From NCBI GenBank assembly GCA_030064915.1, contig JASJEK010000080.1, positions 1 to 32,288 on the forward strand: a DNA stretch of 32,288 bases. The letters are read 5' to 3'. Numbering within the stretch: the stretch's first letter is position 1; every line of letters begins with the position of its first letter. The notes below the pieces were generated by a model. It was not told the origin of the DNA, did no database searches, and was given only the letters and a program-made list of their open reading frames with translations. Origin of the DNA: Xenococcaceae cyanobacterium MO_234.B1. Its GTDB lineage: Bacteria > Cyanobacteriota > Cyanobacteriia > Cyanobacteriales > Xenococcaceae. The position numbers were made by a program, and so were the translations under genes. This document shows, in pieces, positions 2,488 through 32,259 of this stretch.

Positions 2488-2883
2488 CTATTTTTTGCCT
2501 TGAGCAGCAATATACTTCTCAATTGTACTGCTAGAAACATTGCCAGCAGTAGAAACGAAATAACTTCTAGTCCACATCGAAGGCATTTTCTTGAGATGGG
2601 GAAATTCTTTTCTTAAAACATAGGATGAATACCCCTTAATACGGTGCATGATTTGTTTTGGAGCTAAGTCTGGCGGACAATTAAGGAATAAATGAATATG
2701 CTCTGGTTCAATAGCCAGACTGACGACTTTGCATTCTAGCTCTTGAGCTTTTTCATATATTAATTCGGTCACTCGTTTTTTAACATCTCCAACTAATACC
2801 TTGCGTCTTCGGCGAGGTATCCAAATGAAATGGTAGTTAATCAGAGATATTGATGTATTTTTATGTCTATAGGATTGACTCAT
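2488..2883 (-). CDS. tnpA: IS200/IS605-family Y1 transposase TnpA
   Basis: The 131-residue protein is a typical single-domain HUH transposase that cuts and rejoins single-stranded DNA at the hairpin ends of its element. The HUH pair is visible as EHIHLFL (His62, His64). The catalytic tyrosine lies in IEKYIAAQ (Tyr124) on the C-terminal helix. YHFIWIPRRRRKVL near the N terminus is also family-typical. Length is within the normal 130-150 residue range, so the protein looks intact. It is divergent from tnpB with only 28 bp between the starts, the IS605 arrangement. Confidence 0.92.
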   Translation of the reverse strand: MSQSYRHKNTSISLINYHFIWIPRRRRKVLVGDVKKRVTELIYEKAQELECKVVSLAIEPEHIHLFLNCPPDLAPKQIMHRIKGYSSYVLRKEFPHLKKMPSMWTRSYFVSTAGNVSSSTIEKYIAAQGKK

Positions 2884-2911: not shown

Positions 2912-4111
2912 ATGCAAGTAAGTCGAACCCTAAAACTTAAATTCCATAATCTCAATGTCGTCAAAGCACAATTATTTGCTGAGACGACAACAGCTTATAC
3001 TGAGTTGGCTAATGAACTTTTAAAGCTACCAATTAAAGAGAGAAAAAAGCTGACCACAGCTTCTGTAATCACTTCTTTAAAGTCAGCTTTAAGCAATCAA
3101 GTTATCCGTCAAGTTAAAGGAAAAGCAGGAAAAAGAACCAAAGAATTTAAGTTGCTACCGCCAGAAATTAATTATCAAAACTGGAGGTTGTTTAAAAAAG
3201 GAGGTACTTATTCAGTATCATTTCCTACGATACAAGGTGTTAAAAGAGTTCCAATAGAAATTAAATCTAATCATTGGCAATCATTATTGGATAGGTTGCT
3301 AGACAGAGATAAAACTATTTCTAAAGGTACGCTTAAACTGTATCAAAAAAAAGGCAAATGGTATGCTTTTGTGAGTTTAACTGAGGAAGTTCCTCTTGTT
3401 AAATCTAACAATCGAGTAGGTGTAGATCGGGGTCAAAATCAACTTGCTACAGCAGTTCCAAAACAAGGTTTTGGGCTGTTATTTTCAGGCAAAAATGTAA
3501 AGCATCGTCGTCGTTATTTTCAGAAGCGCAGACAGCAACTACAGAAAGTTAAAAAATATCGAGCTATTAAAAAATTAGAGCAAAAAGAACAGCGTTGGAT
3601 GAGGGCAGTTAACCATACTGTGTCTCGTCGCATTGTCAATTTTGCTGATTGGTTAGATGCCGACTTAGTATTAGAAGACCTATCTGGTTGCCGTCAGACT
3701 ATGAAGCAGAGTAGAAAACAACGCTCTGATAATAGTCAATCGCGTCATGCCTGGGCATACTACGATCTTCAATTGAAGACCGAATACAAGCAAGCCATGA
3801 ATGGACGACAAGTGCATTATCGACCACCATACTATACTTCCAAAACTTCATCAGTTAATGGGGTTATTGGCAAGCGTGATGGTAACTGGTTTAAGTGTAC
3901 ATCGGGTGCTATACTACAAAGCGACTTCAATAGTGGCAGAAACTTGGCTATCTGGGATAACAGAGTATGTCCTGTAGATTCTAGAAAAACTGAGCTTGTA
4001 ATGGGTTCAGTCAATCTACAGGATGGGGTCATTGGCAGTCCCCCGAACTTGATGAACGCAGTTCAAGGGAGAGTAGAATATGTACAACTATCTCTATTCG
4101 ATTGTACCTAG
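2912..4111 (+). CDS. tnpB: TnpB, RNA-guided nuclease of IS200/IS605 elements, with degenerate zinc ribbon
   Basis: The 399-residue protein has the helical N-terminal half and RuvC fold of TnpB, the ancestor-like relative of Cas12 that cuts DNA guided by an RNA from the element's right end. Putative RuvC residues are all present: Asp172 in VGVDRG, Glu255 in LVLEDLSG and Asp338 in LQSDFNSGRNLA. The zinc ribbon normally reads TSKxCSxCG...FxCxxCG. Here it reads TSKTSSVNG...FKCTSGA, so only Cys329 of four remains. Length is normal and the frame open, so the loss is substitution, not truncation. The ribbon may be structurally replaced, as in some TnpB branches, or the enzyme may be decaying. Transposition itself needs only TnpA. 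Confidence 0.9.
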   Translation: MQVSRTLKLKFHNLNVVKAQLFAETTTAYTELANELLKLPIKERKKLTTASVITSLKSALSNQVIRQVKGKAGKRTKEFKLLPPEINYQNWRLFKKGGTYSVSFPTIQGVKRVPIEIKSNHWQSLLDRLLDRDKTISKGTLKLYQKKGKWYAFVSLTEEVPLVKSNNRVGVDRGQNQLATAVPKQGFGLLFSGKNVKHRRRYFQKRRQQLQKVKKYRAIKKLEQKEQRWMRAVNHTVSRRIVNFADWLDADLVLEDLSGCRQTMKQSRKQRSDNSQSRHAWAYYDLQLKTEYKQAMNGRQVHYRPPYYTSKTSSVNGVIGKRDGNWFKCTSGAILQSDFNSGRNLAIWDNRVCPVDSRKTELVMGSVNLQDGVIGSPPNLMNAVQGRVEYVQLSLFDCT

Positions 4112-12304: not shown

Positions 12305-12781
12305 ATGGGACTCATTGTTACTGGTAAATCATTTATTCGCGACCTAGAAAAACATGGTGCTTTAGGGGTCTATGTCCCATTAGAAGGAGGAATTGAAGGG
12401 CGCTATCAACGGCGCGTGAGGGCTGCTGGCTACCAAACTCTTAATATAACTGCTAGAGGTTTGGGTGATTTAGCTGCTTATCTCACTACAGTACATGGAG
12501 TTCGCCCTCCTCACCTTGGCAAGAAAACAATTGGTCAAGATGCAGCAGTAGGCGATGTGTATTTTGTTCCTCCCATTGCTACCTATGAATTGGAAACTCT
12601 ACCAGCTAACTCTAAGGGTTTAGTTTTGTGGATTATAGAAGGAAATATTTTATCTCGTCAGGAAAAAGAATATCTAATTAATTTACCGAAAAGCGAACCT
12701 CGAATTAAAGTAGTTTTAGAAGTGGGTGGCGATCGCTATATTCACTGGCAATCTTTAGCAGATACCTTAGTCGCAGCGTGA
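12305..12781 (+). CDS. ndhN: NAD(P)H-quinone oxidoreductase subunit N
   Basis: The 158-residue protein matches NdhN along its whole length: MGLIVTGKSFIRDLEKHGALGVYVPLEGG, then GRYQRRVRAAGYQTLNITARGLGD, VHGVRPPHLGKKTIG, and KGLVLWIIEGNILS near the end. NdhN is a stromal/cytoplasmic-side subunit specific to the oxygenic-photosynthesis NDH-1 complex, which drives cyclic electron flow and respiration. This gene is strong evidence for a cyanobacterial source. It stands as a single gene 80 nt after the ABC ATPase. Confidence 0.97.
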   Translation: MGLIVTGKSFIRDLEKHGALGVYVPLEGGIEGRYQRRVRAAGYQTLNITARGLGDLAAYLTTVHGVRPPHLGKKTIGQDAAVGDVYFVPPIATYELETLPANSKGLVLWIIEGNILSRQEKEYLINLPKSEPRIKVVLEVGGDRYIHWQSLADTLVAA

Positions 12782-12785
12782 CATT

Positions 12786-12810
12786 CTCCCAAAGCGCAAG
12801 CTGGGGGACT
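12786..12810. repeat. Hairpin after ndhN
   Basis: CTCCC and AGC (12786-12795) pair with GCT and GGGGG (about 12800-12807) around a GCAA tetraloop. No T tract follows, so it is not a simple terminator. It may stabilise the ndhN mRNA or be a fragment of a dispersed element. Confidence 0.4.
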
Positions 12811-12871
12811 TCTCACGGAAGAAAGTTAAAATGGGAAATAGCTGAACAGTAAGTGAGAGGTAATATGGGCT

Positions 12872-13411
12872 ATGGGAGAAATAGATGAGCTATTAAAAGA
12901 GGTAAAAGCAGAATTTACCACTGAAAAAAAACCTCAACCCCAGTCATCTCCCAAAAAGGTTAGCCCATCCTCTTCATCATCCCACCCTAAGATTCCATCA
13001 GCTTCTTCTAAAGCTCCTTTAGATAGTCTCATAGCAGAGGTAAAAAAAGAATTTGAGTCGGGAAAAACTTCACCATCATCAAAATCCCATAACTTTCTCA
13101 AAAATTCTAAAACTTTTACGAAGTCGAAGGAAGCTCCCTTGTTTGATGGGGGAGTCTCTTCGACCAAGAGCAGTAAAAGTAATCTAATCAAAGAATTACA
13201 GCAAGAATACCAAGAAAAAGCGCAAATAGAGCAAGAACAGCAGCAACAAGAAAAACAGCGTCGTCGAGAAGCTTTAAGACAAAAGGCGCAACAGTGGTTA
13301 AATAATTTAGACCTCAATACAGATGAAGGATTGTGGTTTGAAGAATTTTCCTATTCTTACGATTCCAAATTAGCAGCAGCAATGGATTATTTAGCAGCAA
13401 TGAGAGAGTGA
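12872..13411 (+). CDS. Slr1339-family (salt-stress-annotated) protein
   Basis: The 179-residue protein is low in complexity, with three copies of a short helix motif: IDELLKEVKAEF (4-15), LDSLIAEVKKEF (about 50-61) and NLIKELQQEY (about 104-113), separated by Ser/Pro/Lys linkers. It ends in a charged helix and a conserved tail, AQQWLNNLDLNTDEGLWFEEFSYSYDSKLAAAMDYL. This matches a cyanobacterial family named after Slr1339 and often labelled salt-stress protein. Molecular function is unknown; the motifs look like binding sites for a partner. An upstream ATG at 12864 runs into a stop after seven codons. Confidence 0.75.
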   Translation: MGEIDELLKEVKAEFTTEKKPQPQSSPKKVSPSSSSSHPKIPSASSKAPLDSLIAEVKKEFESGKTSPSSKSHNFLKNSKTFTKSKEAPLFDGGVSSTKSSKSNLIKELQQEYQEKAQIEQEQQQQEKQRRREALRQKAQQWLNNLDLNTDEGLWFEEFSYSYDSKLAAAMDYLAAMRE

Positions 13412-13450
13412 AAAGCTATTTGTCAAAAAAAAGCAAGGAAAAGAACGAAT

Positions 13451-14080
13451 ATGACTTACACCATTGATCTTAAAGCTCTTGCTGACCCTATAAGCGATCG
13501 CCAGTTTCAACAGCTATGCGTCCAAAATCCAGAGCTAAAGTTTGAAACTAATGCTAAGGGAGAATTAATCGTAATGTCGCCAACGGGTAGTGAAACTGGA
13601 GAAAGGAATGCAGATTTAGTGATTCAGTTGGGAATATGGAATCGTAAGTACAAGTTGGGTAAAGTATTTGATTCTTCCACAGGCTTTAAGTTACCCAACG
13701 GTGCTAAACGCTCTCCTGATGTAAGTTGGATAGCAAACATTCGCTGGAATGCTCTAACCAAAGAACAGAAACGTGGTTTTGCACCTATTGCTCCTGATTT
13801 CGTAATCGAGTGTCTTGGTGCGCGTTCCCAATCGGAGGAAACCTCCGAGGGGTCGCACCGCTTAATGTCCCCTACCGATAACCTGTTAGATGTGCAGCAG
13901 AAGATGGAAGAGTATATGAGTTGTGGAGTGAAGTTGGGTTGGCTAATTAATCCTGATGAGCTACAGGTAGAGATTTATCGCTTGGGACAAGAAAAAGAAG
14001 TATTGAATAATCCTAGTAATTTATCTGGAGAAGATATCTTACCTAATTTAATTGTAGATTTATCAGATATTTTTGACTGA
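13451..14080 (+). CDS. Uma2-family (DUF820) endonuclease-like protein with an in-frame insertion
   Basis: The 209-residue product has the Uma2/DUF820 restriction-endonuclease-like fold: ELKFETNAKGELIVMSPTGSETGERN, then STGFKLPNGAKRSPDVSW (acidic residue Asp90), FVIE (Glu120), and SPTDNLLDVQQKMEEYMSCGVKLGWLI. In normal members the glutamate runs directly into a VRSPTDNL- or LMSPTDNL-like stretch. Here 17 residues (121-137) encoded by a palindromic repeat separate them. Uma2 genes are numerous in cyanobacteria and of unknown role. The insertion directly follows a presumed active-site residue, so activity is doubtful although the frame is intact. AAGGAA before the ATG may be the ribosome binding site. 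Confidence 0.88.
   Translation: MTYTIDLKALADPISDRQFQQLCVQNPELKFETNAKGELIVMSPTGSETGERNADLVIQLGIWNRKYKLGKVFDSSTGFKLPNGAKRSPDVSWIANIRWNALTKEQKRGFAPIAPDFVIECLGARSQSEETSEGSHRLMSPTDNLLDVQQKMEEYMSCGVKLGWLINPDELQVEIYRLGQEKEVLNNPSNLSGEDILPNLIVDLSDIFD
13811..13861. repeat. Palindromic repeat inserted in the Uma2 gene
   Basis: This 51-nt segment has GGTGCG (13817-13822) paired with CGCACC (13854-13859) and an inner hairpin CGGAGG-AAA-CCTCCG (13833-13847). It is more GC-rich than its surroundings and its length is a multiple of three, keeping the frame. It interrupts an otherwise conserved motif exactly. Confidence 0.8.
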
Positions 14081-14145
14081 AATCACAACATTTAGAATTT
14101 TGGGAATATACACTAGACCCTTTTGCATAAGTCTGATAAATCTCG

Positions 14146-14173
14146 GTAGGGACGTAGCATGCTACGTCCCTAC
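14146..14173. repeat. Perfect 28-bp palindrome upstream of hisG
   Basis: Two 14-nt arms beginning GTAGGGACG are perfect reverse complements without spacer. The motif GTAGGGACGTAGCATGCTAC is of a type dispersed in many cyanobacterial genomes. It lies between the Uma2 stop and the hisG start and could act as a bidirectional terminator or a mobile REP-like unit. Confidence 0.75.
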
Positions 14174-14177
14174 AGTA

Positions 14178-14203
14178 CAATTAGCAATTAGCAATTAGCA
14201 ATT
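14178..14203. repeat. CAATTAG heptamer tandem repeat
   Basis: Three and a half copies of a 7-bp unit (14178-14184, 14185-14191, 14192-14198, then CAATT) follow the palindrome and end about 53 nt before hisG. Confidence 0.7.
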
Positions 14204-14256
14204 CCCCATACTGTGAGAAAATCTGTTAGAAAGGCGCAAAGACTGATTACTTATTT

Positions 14257-14892
14257 ATGATTACTATTGCTTTACCCAAAGGCGCACTTCTCAAAGACAG
14301 CATCGAATTATTCAAACAGGTAGGTTTAGATTTTAGTCTGTTTCTTGATAAAAGCAATCGTCAATTACAAATTACTGACCCTACTAATACTGCTAAAGCT
14401 TTATTGGTGAGGGCGCAGGATGTTCCTGTATATGTGGAATATGGTCAAGCCCAATTAGGGGTTGTGGGTTATGATGTGTTGCGAGAAAAACGACCTAATG
14501 TGGCAAATTTAACTGATCTGAAGTTTGGTTACTGTCGGTTGTCTGTTGCTGTACCAAAATCTAGTGCTTACAGGCGATCGCAAGAGTTACCGCCTCATGG
14601 TAGAGTAGCATCTAAGTTTGTTAATTGTGCCAAAGAGCATTTTCGTAATATTGATTTACCTATAGAAATTGTACCCCTATCGGGTTCAGTAGAATTAGGT
14701 CCGATTACGGGAATGTCAGAAGCAATTGTAGATTTGGTTTCTACAGGGCGCACTCTCAAAGAAAATGGTTTGCTCGAAATTGATGTACTGTACGAAAGTA
14801 CTGCTAGATTAATCGCCCATCCCTTAAGTTATCGTCTGAAGCGAGATAATCTGGATGATTTGGTAGCTAAAGTGCATAGTTTGGTTAGTTAG
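14257..14892 (+). CDS. hisG: ATP phosphoribosyltransferase, short form
   Basis: The 211-residue protein is the short HisG type, which lacks the C-terminal regulatory domain and works with HisZ: it joins ATP and PRPP in the first step of histidine synthesis. Landmarks are [47 protein letters not shown], and the PRPP-binding stretch [36 protein letters not shown]. No other his gene is adjacent, typical of the scattered his genes in cyanobacteria. The next gene begins directly after its stop codon, so the two are translated in tandem. Confidence 0.95.
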
Positions 14893-15333: not shown

Positions 15334-15375
15334 TTACTACTCAACCGTTACTACTCAACCGTTACTACTCAACCG
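15334..15375. repeat. Three perfect 14-bp tandem repeats
   Basis: TTACTACTCAACCG is repeated three times without change (15334-15347, 15348-15361, 15362-15375). The third copy and part of the second encode the last residues and stop codon of the convergent permease gene. Confidence 0.9.
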
Positions 15376-16233
15376 TATATTGATAATTGATAACCCTAAG
15401 ATCCCCACAAACAATACTAAGCCAATAGTGCAAGCATAGCTGATATCTAAATCTTGAAAAGCTCTTTCATATAGATAATACACTACAGTTTTAGAACTAT
15501 TGCGAGGTCCTCCTTGGGTCATTACATAAATCTCTTCAAATACTTTAGTAGCAGAAATAGCGGAAATTACTGCGACAAGAAATAAATAGGGACCCATTAA
15601 GGGTAGGGTAATATCTAAGTGTCTGCGCCATCCATCGGAACCATCAATTGCTGCTGCTTCGTACAATTCGGGAGATATTCCTTGTAAACCGGCAAGATAA
15701 ATCACCATATAGTAACCCAATCCTTTCCAGATTGTGACTAATATCACACTCCAAAGAGCTAAATCAGGACTGGTTAACCAGGGAATTCCCGACTCAAAAC
15801 CCCAAGCTTTGAGAAACTGATTAATTAAACCATTGCTGGTATAGAAAGCTTTCCAAGCAATACCTGCTACCACCATCGAGATTACTACAGGGGTATAAAA
15901 AGCAGTCCGAAACCAATAGATACCTTTTAATTTTTGATTTACTAGAATCGCTAATATTAAGGGTACTATCACTAGAACAGGAACAGCACCCACTAAATAT
16001 AACAGAGTATTACCGACAGTCTGCCAAAAAACCCGATCGCTTGCTAGTCGCTGGAAATTAGACCATCCTATCCATTGAGGCGGTTGGGTGAGGTCGTATT
16101 CGTATTGGGTAAAACTTAGGGAAAAAGCTGATATCGCAGGTAAAAAAACTGTCAGAGTTAGAATTGCGATCGCAGGAAATAAGAAAAGATAGGGAATTAA
16201 CTTTCTTTGATTAATCGGTAGAGACTTGAGCAA
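15355..16233 (-). CDS. Sugar-type ABC transporter permease (MalF/UgpA family)
   Basis: The 292-residue protein has six hydrophobic segments and the family EAA loop, here ELYEAAAIDGSDGWRRHLDITLPL, which contacts the ATPase. The start PYLFLFPAIAILTLTVFLPAISAF is typical of MalF-like permeases for sugars or glycerol derivatives. The only possible start is a TTG at 16233, directly preceded in frame by a TAA; no early ATG exists. The final residues (about RLSSNG and stop) are read from a tandem repeat. No partner permease, ATPase or binding protein is nearby, so it is an orphan subunit and may be decaying at the edges. Substrate unknown. Confidence 0.85.
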   Translation of the reverse strand: MLKSLPINQRKLIPYLFLFPAIAILTLTVFLPAISAFSLSFTQYEYDLTQPPQWIGWSNFQRLASDRVFWQTVGNTLLYLVGAVPVLVIVPLILAILVNQKLKGIYWFRTAFYTPVVISMVVAGIAWKAFYTSNGLINQFLKAWGFESGIPWLTSPDLALWSVILVTIWKGLGYYMVIYLAGLQGISPELYEAAAIDGSDGWRRHLDITLPLMGPYLFLVAVISAISATKVFEEIYVMTQGGPRNSSKTVVYYLYERAFQDLDISYACTIGLVLFVGILGLSIINIRLSSNG

Positions 16234-16730: not shown

Positions 16731-18227
16731 ATGAAGAAAAGTTTACAAAACTGGTGTATTTTATTGGTCTCCATTGCCTTGCTTTGGTTGGGGATATTGC
16801 CTTATCCCCAGGCTATGGGTGCAGAAAATCAAGATAAAGTGCTGCACTATATTTCCCGTTTGAGTTTTGGCGTAACCCCAGGACAAATCCAACAAGTGCA
16901 AGCTAGTGGGATAGAAAATTATCTCCAAGCACAGCTTAACCCCGAATCTATCCCAGAATCTCCTGTTTTAGAACGTCGTTTAGGACAATTAGACACTCTG
17001 AAGATGGGTCCTCCCGATTTGTTTAAATCTTTCCAGAAATATAATATTCAACTTCAACCTAATAAGGGAAGAAATTTATCAATAGCAGAAAAAAAAGAAT
17101 TACAACAAAAAAGAAATCAATTCCGCCAAAAAGCGATCAAACAAGCGCAAAAAGCTCATTTATTGCGCGGTGTTTTGTCTGAGCGTCAGTTACAAGAGGT
17201 GATGGTTGACTTCTGGTTCAACCATTTTAATGTTGTTTTTAGTAAAAAAGTCATTCCCTTTTGGCTAGCAGATTATGAAAATGATATCCGAACTCACGCC
17301 TTGGGTAACTTTCGGGATTTATTAGCTACCACGGCACATCATCCAGCAATGTTAATTTATCTGGATAACGATTTAAATGTTGCTCCCAATGACAAAGCCA
17401 AGGGTAATCTCAAAGGGATTAACGAAAACTATGCTCGGGAACTGATGGAGTTACACACTCTAGGAGTTGATGGAGGCTATACCCAACAAGATGTCATTGC
17501 CCTAGCTCGGATTTTAACAGGATGGGGAGTGGATCGTAAGGGTGGTTTAGGAGATGAAAATAGTTTTAAGTTTTATGAGCGACGTCATGACTACTCTGAT
17601 AAAGTGTTTCTGGGTCACACTATTCCAGGAACAGGTATAGAAGAAGGGGAAAAAGCTCTAGATATCTTAGCTAGTCATCCTGCAACGGCTCGTTTTATTA
17701 GTTATAAGCTGGCACAATATTTTGTCGCAGACCAACCACCAACCAGTTTAGTCGATCGCCTAGGGGATAAGTTTCTCGATAGTAATGGCAATATCAAAGT
17801 CGTATTAGATACTTTGTTCCATTCCCCAGAATTTAACGACCCTCAGTATTACCATAATAAGTTCAAGACTCCTTATCAGTATCTAGTTTCGATCTTGCGA
17901 GCTAGTAACATCAACAATCCCAACTTTCAGCGATTGAGGGGAATGTTTGCTCAGTTATCAATGCCAATATACGGTTGTGCAACCCCAGATGGTTATAAAA
18001 ATACCCAAGATGCTTGGTTAAATCCTGAAGGGATGTTGCGACGAGTCAGTTTGGCTAATGCGATCGCCAATGGAGCAGTAAGCAACAAGCAACCTGTTAA
18101 TGCTCAACAACTGCAAAAAACTTTAGGGAATAAATTTTCTCCTACTACTAAAAATGCGATCGCTCAAAGTCCTCCTCGTCTTCGTTCTACGTTGATTTTG
18201 GGTAGTCCCGAAATGATGAATAGGTAA
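16731..18227 (+). CDS. DUF1800 family exported protein
   Basis: From ATG 16731 the product is 498 residues and begins with a good Sec signal peptide (MKKSLQNWCILLVSIALLWL..., cleavage near AMG-A about residue 30). The DUF1800 body follows: HYISRLSFGVTPGQIQQVQASGIENYLQAQL, then QEVMVDFWFNHFNVVF, then NENYARELMELHTLGVDGGYTQQDVIALARILTGW, and HPATARFISYKLAQYFVAD. An in-frame ATG at 16608 would place 41 non-hydrophobic residues ahead of the signal peptide, so I prefer 16731. DUF1800 genes are nearly always followed by DUF1501, as here. Function unknown; extracytoplasmic location is inferred. Confidence 0.88.
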   Translation: MKKSLQNWCILLVSIALLWLGILPYPQAMGAENQDKVLHYISRLSFGVTPGQIQQVQASGIENYLQAQLNPESIPESPVLERRLGQLDTLKMGPPDLFKSFQKYNIQLQPNKGRNLSIAEKKELQQKRNQFRQKAIKQAQKAHLLRGVLSERQLQEVMVDFWFNHFNVVFSKKVIPFWLADYENDIRTHALGNFRDLLATTAHHPAMLIYLDNDLNVAPNDKAKGNLKGINENYARELMELHTLGVDGGYTQQDVIALARILTGWGVDRKGGLGDENSFKFYERRHDYSDKVFLGHTIPGTGIEEGEKALDILASHPATARFISYKLAQYFVADQPPTSLVDRLGDKFLDSNGNIKVVLDTLFHSPEFNDPQYYHNKFKTPYQYLVSILRASNINNPNFQRLRGMFAQLSMPIYGCATPDGYKNTQDAWLNPEGMLRRVSLANAIANGAVSNKQPVNAQQLQKTLGNKFSPTTKNAIAQSPPRLRSTLILGSPEMMNR

Positions 18228-18277
18228 TAAGTAATAAGTAATAAGTAATAAGTAATAAGTAATAAGTAATAAGTAAT
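18225..18277. repeat. TAATAAG heptamer array between DUF1800 and DUF1501
   Basis: Seven perfect copies of a 7-bp unit plus four bases. The array starts with the TAA stop of the upstream gene and ends one base before the ATG of the downstream gene. It fills the whole intercistronic space, so no canonical Shine-Dalgarno is present. Confidence 0.95.
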
Positions 18278-25519: not shown

Positions 25520-25567
25520 TTTTATGATATTGTTTTCACAACATTTTATGATATTGTTTTCACAACA
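25520..25567. repeat. Perfect 24-bp tandem duplication between FAH gene and rpsF
   Basis: Two identical 24-nt copies (25520-25543 and 25544-25567), each starting TTTTATGATATTG and containing the inverted repeat TTGT-TTTC-ACAA. They lie about 80 nt from both divergent start codons, the position of a promoter or operator. Confidence 0.9.
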
Positions 25568-31970: not shown

Positions 31971-32180
31971 TTAACAGTCAACACTTGTGTGATTCACTAT
32001 TACCATGATTCGTCGTCTTAAAGATGGTGCTAGCCACCCAGAGGGTTTTGAACGATTGAATCTTTTCTTTCTATATCTGGTTTTGCGATTCCGACGAGAA
32101 CGCCTGAAGCCAGCCCGCTTGGTTAGAGATTCTGAGATTTGTTGTCCCCTATGTTCTAACTCCATGCCCCAGACTAGCAA
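31971..32180 (-). pseudogene. Relic of an IscB-type (RRXRR) RNA-guided nuclease gene
   Basis: About 58 residues (32180 to 32007) match the arginine-rich bridge-helix region of IscB/RRXRR proteins: MELEHRGQQI, then RRSRRNRKTRYRKKRF and GWLAPSLRRR. IscB is the transposon-encoded ancestor of Cas9. The flanks do not continue: the frame upstream is closed by a TAA just before 32180, and downstream the residues turn unrelated and stop after ten codons. Two residues appear to be missing between RF and NR. No RuvC start or HNH domain is visible, so this is a decayed fragment. Confidence 0.7.
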
Positions 32181-32259
32181 TGAGTTTTAAGTATCACGTA
32201 TTATGGTATAATACCCACAAATTTAGAAAAAATTCAATGTATGGTTGTCAGCAAGTTTT

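Follow-up and report, generated by a model that had tools for sequence, protein, structure and literature searches.

A copy of a dispersed cyanobacterial 51-bp hairpin repeat in a uma2 gene, where it has likely inserted precisely and in frame

In the uma2 gene of Xenococcaceae cyanobacterium MO_234.B1, 51 bp directly behind the codon of a conserved glutamate are a member of a dispersed cyanobacterial hairpin repeat family; with a probability of roughly 0.8, this copy has jumped precisely into the gene and is predicted to be translated there as a 17-residue loop. The gene lies in a stretch of 32,288 nt (contig JASJEK010000080.1), referred to here as the window. The Pfam Uma2 match of its 209-aa product covers residues 18-203 (139 bits) and spans the element, which reads TGTCTTGGTGCGCG...TCGCACCGC, codes for CLGARSQSEETSEGSHR and stands directly after GAG (Glu120), whereupon the family motif LMSPTD resumes (Table 1). 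An earlier note on this DNA had described a 51-nt sequence with an outer and an inner stem that keeps the frame and adds 17 residues right after Glu120, and both the letters of the stems and the reading frame were found as described.

Table 1. Features of the uma2 gene and of the inserted element (positions in the window)
Feature	Position	Strand	Remark
uma2 gene carrying the element	13451..14080	+	ORF, 209 aa; Pfam Uma2
codon of Asp90	13718..13720	+	invariant in 44 aligned homologues
codon of Glu120, directly before the insert	13808..13810	+	conserved in at least 90% of 44 aligned homologues
inserted 51-nt hairpin element, 17 codons, CLGARSQSEETSEGSHR	13811..13861	+	empty site in syntenic L032; identical second copy
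outer arm GGTGCG	13817..13822	+	pairs with 13854-13859
inner arm CGGAGG	13833..13838	+	pairs with 13842-13847
inner arm CCTCCG	13842..13847	+	pairs with 13833-13838; loop between inner arms is AAA
outer arm CGCACC	13854..13859	+	pairs with 13817-13822
flank TTAAT, CCGC side	13862..13866	+	TTNTT preferred by the family; this copy fits in part only
codon of Lys151	13901..13903	+	invariant in 44 aligned homologues

The repeat family and its hairpin

In a BLAST search of the strain's own genome, 43 matches were obtained at E<=10 (the element itself included), and one other copy, on another contig, is identical at 51/51 positions (G000:C436:6262-6312, E 3.6e-20), by which a chance palindrome is rejected. 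A model built from 15 aligned full-length own-genome copies, R1, gave 80 matches in the same genome at E<=10 and at least 49 at E<=0.01. The genome search proposed in the earlier note has thus returned a repeat, with an identical copy at home and many family members elsewhere, rather than a sequence confined to uma2. Matches to R1 at E<=0.01 were present in 29 of the 40 genomes searched, namely the own genome, 24/24 others of the family and 4/15 others of the order, with the highest copy count in G013 (at least 132); 145-150 candidates were scored per genome, so that all per-genome counts are minimum values. When named genomes were scanned with an exact pattern, at least 111 stretches were obtained, and all 111 record titles listed are cyanobacterial, the genera among the pattern matches listed being Okeania, Baaleninema, Xenococcus, Hyella, Spirulina, Crocosphaera, Lyngbya, Moorena, Leptolyngbya, Hydrocoleum and Waterburya. 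The plasmid and phage collections gave no match to the element at E<=0.001, and the covariance models of Rfam 15, run over positions 13400-14300, gave two chance-level matches, neither over the element, with no described RNA family of Rfam 15 matched there.

The RNA of the element folds into one imperfect hairpin (-27.3 kcal/mol, z -3.53; 2/200 shuffles equally good), in which a seventh inner-stem pair is formed in the model by positions 13832 and 13848, and the framework pattern occurs once in the window vs 0/100 shuffles. Throughout the family the outer stem and its neighbours are nearly constant, and the inner seven-pair stem varies by compensatory pairs. The six outer pairs are invariant in 15/15 own-genome copies, and 4/6 show compensatory changes among 50 distinct rows from relatives. 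For the inner stem, 31 double-change cells were counted in the 15 own-genome copies vs 9.2 in shuffles, and 117 vs 35.0 in the 50 rows from relatives; in this latter alignment, which is biased towards the model because it was fitted to it, the score was 0.419 vs 0.110 when shuffled (0/500 shuffles as high; sliding controls 0.025-0.143).

Lengths were compared in two sets of copies. The first comprises 67 copies distinct by their flanks, for which 21/62 and 52/61 rows, full-length and stronger, were kept after removal of duplicates and of rows that were partial, long or weak; 61 of these copies measure 51 nt and six measure 52 nt. The second, named set comprises 112 distinct copies among the matches listed, viral-contig units included, and overlaps the first at least partly; here 97 copies are 51 nt long, 12 are 53, two are 52 and one is 48. 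The unit length is supported independently of any empty site by a 99.9-kb IMG/VR viral contig (L385), where units lie exactly 51 nt apart in two tandem arrays inside open frames (1403-1502 and 12720-12870, with 2 and 3 pattern matches), one of them close to the N-terminal end of a protein whose DHHA1 match, at 24.1 bits, stays below the cut-off of 25.9. Any mechanism has to account for the prevailing length of 51 nt and for the compensatory exchange of the inner stem.

Two groups of deviating copies were also observed. In the own genome, L015, L019 and L010 share the left framework and have a different, G-rich right part, and may be mosaics or a sister element, and in G004 there are model matches of 98 nt (L171, L173, L175, L177, L179, L181) that apparently form a sister family of greater length, in which the inner arm is extended.

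Empty sites and mobilisation

Evidence for insertion is provided by empty sites. In the syntenic uma2 gene of a genome of the same genus (G002, L032), ATTGAG is followed at once by TTAATG, with matching DNA on both sides, and the window has exactly 51 nt more; when these are taken out, the two genes align without gaps over 198 nt at 86%, except that a single T could be assigned to either end of the element (13811-13861 or 13812-13862). The Uma2 protein of G002 looks the same, in a comparison by eye, as P0005 from Xenococcaceae cyanobacterium MO_167.B27. In pyrF, removal of 51 nt likewise gives gap-free alignments with L241 (200 nt, 83%) and L242 (198 nt, 80%), as it does in the tnpB gene L160 against its paralogue L235 (200 nt, 93%) and, across the site, in the tnpB genes L115, L009 and L164 against relatives, whereas gaps were needed to align the IscB copies L016 and L088 with an empty site, the length of L088 being read as 52 nt. 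At the gap-free empty sites, where exactly 51 nt are taken out (uma2, pyrF, tnpB), no target-site duplication is present; some other sites are gapped. Near-identical alleles with and without the insert also exist, as the Uma2 homologues P0003 (with) and P0004 (without) differ, the insert aside, at 3/193 residues. Taken with the dispersed family, the empty sites support the mobility implied when the element was called a mobile palindrome.

It is proposed that the element jumps precisely into a gene without target duplication, and that a Y1 (HUH) transposase of the IS200/IS605 type, acting in trans, would mobilise it as a hairpin of single-stranded DNA and place it next to the A-rich pentanucleotide AANAA on the other strand. 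Insertions into genes might then persist as translated passengers, since a unit of 51 nt amounts to 17 codons and no stop codon lies in the constant framework, and copies in tnpB or iscB transposon genes could be carried further by those transposons. A Y1 transposase acting in trans is proposed because the insertion is precise and without duplication, one side is T-rich, the unit is a hairpin and the association with IS605-type genes is frequent. IS200/IS605 elements have hairpins, make no target duplication and show a short sequence preference on one side. Non-autonomous elements derived from them would share the first two of these features, and perhaps the third, with the present repeat, which differs in consisting of one hairpin only and in that no parent with matching ends was found. 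The Y1 step beside AANAA is put forward with reserve, its chances being judged close to, but short of, even.

The flanks bear on this step. On the CCGC side of the 67 distinct copies, T stands at +1 in 50, at +2 in 40, at +4 in 41 and at +5 in 51, and the resulting TTNTT reads AANAA on the other strand, followed directly by GCGG. Among the 112 named copies listed, T is found at +1 in 89 and at +5 in 67, but TTNTT is strict in only 28 and is imperfect at the window's own site, which is a point against the proposal. Association with transposon genes is seen in the own genome, where 8 of the 21 copies kept lie in tnpB/iscB ORFs vs about 1.7% of the genome (88 kb) taken up by the 85 such frames listed (binomial P ~1e-9); this comparison was made after the pattern had been seen, with L009 assigned via its paralogue L231 and L003 through a motif and a TNB match next to it. 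In five Okeania tnpB-like genes, of which L307 was Pfam-scanned, the element occupies apparently the same site, which suggests that it also rides on tnpB-type transposons.

Only slightly less likely is that the same element is moved by something other than Y1, either by a DDE transposase that uses the outer inverted ends or by template switching of replication at A/T runs. Among 20 Y1 loci of the own genome, 7 R1 matches were found in 5 loci at E<=10, none of them as an end pair, so that a parent Y1 transposon with matching ends was not found there, and copy number is uncorrelated with Y1 gene number in 25 genomes (Spearman 0.16, p 0.45, the copy numbers being lower bounds); the T-rich flank could, moreover, reflect slippage-prone runs. 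Most DDE transposition, however, duplicates its target, and the gap-free empty sites without duplication are unlike it, just as a precise unit of mostly 51 nt is unlike template switching.

A role of the element as the end of an insertion sequence was considered and rejected, as the identical copy on G000:C436 lies between divergent tnpB and tnpA genes and not at an element end. This copy (G000:C436:6262-6317, L074 1398-1453) stands a few bases before the tnpA start codon and could affect expression of tnpA.

Reading frame, carrier genes and the Uma2 protein

The earlier note had asked how many other copies lie in frame: among the named copies listed, 34 lie in long ORFs and all are a multiple of three in length (33 of 51 nt and one of 48), four of the 34 rows being units of the L385 arrays. 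Outside long ORFs this holds for 64/78 (Fisher p 0.005 for the named copies listed), a comparison that is in part circular, since any copy that broke the frame would also terminate the ORF. The element is open in frame in 22/25 copies located in empty-site ORFs of at least 150 aa vs 307/402 frames open generally, a difference that does not decide on selection, and all six frames are open in 25/67 copies vs 12% of plain shuffles, a weak control, as shuffling destroys the palindrome. An association of a TG start with insertion into genes, suggested by visual inspection of the first set, was abandoned when TC was found in 17/34 in-ORF copies of the second.

A Pfam scan was made of 50 proteins with an open frame spanning a copy, the window's included. 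One domain match runs across the element in 10/50, namely in Uma2, the RRXRR domain of IscB (L088), orotidine 5'-phosphate decarboxylase (L123), DUF29 (L166), Anticodon_1 of valyl-tRNA synthetase (L330), TnpB (L115, L306, L333, L382) and a DDE_5 transposase (L325). In 13 more there are matches on both sides, in TnpB (L004, L005, L104, L117, L164, L307, L313, L334, L348), IscB (L317, and L121, for which the place of the second RRXRR stretch was not printed), a polyketide synthase (L318) and an alpha/beta hydrolase (L125); the remaining 27/50 show neither arrangement, and many have no Pfam match at all. In alignments, exactly 17 extra residues are present in valyl-tRNA synthetase (ValRS) vs six relatives and in PyrF vs three. 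The element lies in frame in the only ValRS found in the genome of Lyngbya aestuarii BL J, where the search for a second ValRS gave a next-best match of 29% identity (completeness of the genome is not stated). Other copies break their genes: L124 has an in-frame stop, and L159 and L157/L130 resume in another frame, the identity of all of these as transposases being a reading of motifs. Blocks of 17 residues such as SLGARSL...GSHR or RCDPA...ERAPR in cyanobacterial proteins should be interpreted as insertions of a mobile element and not as loops native to the protein.

Carriage by essential enzymes such as ValRS, together with the stability of the hairpin, would also be expected if the element were left untranslated, its RNA being removed or its hairpin bypassed by ribosomes in the manner of the mitochondrial byp elements, so that the protein sequence is unchanged. 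Such an element would need neither a length divisible by three nor an open frame, yet all of the in-ORF copies counted above have such a length (with the circularity mentioned), and this explanation is considered very unlikely.

As for Uma2 itself, translation of the insert would place new residues close to the presumed active site. Asp90, Glu120 and Lys151, which we take to be a site of the PD-(D/E)xK type, are likely catalytic, as judged by their conservation in 44 homologues and by the fold match. The AlphaFold2 model of the insert-free homologue P0004 (mean pLDDT 87) has its best PDB match in 1wdj (TM 0.90), with the conserved Glu in a strand (118-122) followed by a helix (129-141) that holds the invariant Lys. 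The model that includes the insert has a mean pLDDT of 79.9; its strand stops at 121 and residues 126-142 score under 50, by which the insert is predicted to be a disordered loop right behind the Glu120 strand. In P0002, which has the same insert, Val replaces Glu120, and catalysis is therefore probably gone in at least one carrier, to judge from its sequence. The earlier claim of new protein sequence at the active site can be kept as anatomy, with a predicted loop behind the strand of the conserved Glu, but not as a gained function, given the Glu-to-Val change in P0002.

Compared with the insert-free G002 orthologue, the uma2 gene of the window has a dN/dS of 0.148 (0.238 before the insert, 0.055 after), with values of 0.068 for hisG and 0.321 for the ORF at 12872 as comparators; this value is mainly a record of the time before insertion and is no evidence of a dead gene. 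It is highly improbable that the insert confers a new, selected property on Uma2: three uma2 alleles have it in common, the gene is still open and the dN/dS against the orthologue, given above, could be cited in its favour, but P0002 lacks the conserved Glu, the same kind of block occurs in many unrelated proteins and the loop is predicted to be disordered. The insertion has probably resulted in a paralogue that is tolerated but weakened or dead in catalysis, and not in a new function.

Comparison with Uma2 homologues that lack the insert, which had been proposed, was made with the best 120 of 7,980, the window's own protein included, 18 and 44 of which were aligned in two separate alignments. 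The insert is present at the site in three of the 120 (P0001, which is the window's, P0002 and P0003), 115 have none (106 by script pattern, nine by eye), and two (P0101 and P0098) have something else nearby, so that homologues do not generally carry unrelated loops here. P0098 is longer by 8 residues in the next loop. The extra stretch in P0101, 17 residues that are unrelated to the element, lies three residues upstream of the point where the window's protein has its insert, and may stem from another small mobile element. The reading as a chance palindrome, or as a loop native to this Uma2 subfamily, for which the odd-length loops near the site in these 2/120 could be cited, deserves almost no credence in view of the identical DNA on another contig, the many family members and the empty orthologue.

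Related systems and other features of the window

The SDR repeats of Nostoc, which Elhai et al. reportedly described in 2008, are said to be very small mobile repeats; the present element resembles them as a tiny mobile repeat of cyanobacteria and differs, by description, in that SDR are reportedly shorter. Palindromes that lie in frame within protein genes are known chiefly from Rickettsia. The likeness to rickettsial repeats drawn in the earlier note extends to behaviour: the Rickettsia palindromic elements (RPEs) are, in the available parts of two sources, small palindromic repeats of which many lie in frame in unrelated protein genes (PMC10969869, PMC3733652), and the Pfam matches across or on both sides of the element, together with the empty sites, fit this feature. 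It is meant as an analogy and not as membership; RPEs are given as about 150 bp long, in ten families and from Rickettsia (PMC10969869, available in part), a size not reached by the 51-nt element, which is 51 nt in 97/112 named copies listed, is cyanobacterial and has a nearly constant outer framework with an exchanged inner stem; the two are set apart by description. By analogy, the element works like the Rickettsia elements.

A further resemblance is to REPs, which are also short, dispersed and hairpin-forming, and of which GTAG families are reported from cyanobacteria (PMC3733652, available in part). REPs are, however, extragenic by name, and the tags GTAG and CGTC that define them in that part of the source (PMC3733652) are unlike the ends of the element, which are TGTC or TCTC in 54/67 distinct copies (TG 41, TC 13) and CCGC; CG before TC, giving a CGTC start, was found in only 4/67. 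In the literature searched, as far as its text was available, neither the 51-nt family nor its framework letters GGTGCGCGTTCC are described, and an earlier description may exist.

A 2024 review, in the part available, describes in-frame palindromes as unusually frequent in Rickettsia and what they contribute to protein evolution as unexplored (PMC10969869). A smaller in-frame palindrome in free-living cyanobacteria, named strains included, would make translation, the tolerance of enzymes and the mover testable. Tentatively, and with the odds somewhat against it, the element may be seen as a cyanobacteria-wide hairpin built for life in genes by its 17 codons, its stop-free framework and its lack of target duplication; it would be a translated passenger even in essential enzymes such as ValRS, and its inner stem, rewritten again and again within a conserved outer framework, would write many peptides into many proteins.

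Several other features were observed in the window. Downstream of uma2, positions 14146-14173 form a perfect 28-nt palindrome that starts with GTAG and looks like a GTAG-tagged REP, as far as these are described in the available part of the source (PMC3733652). A Y1 transposase gene (2500-2850, minus strand) and a TnpB-type TNB domain (3758-3946, plus strand) form an IS605-type pair, and a partial IscB-type RRXRR match lies in a 71-aa open frame at 31992-32183 (minus strand). Short tandem repeats are present at 18219-18277 (7 nt), 15334-15376 (14 nt) and 25520-25567 (24 nt).
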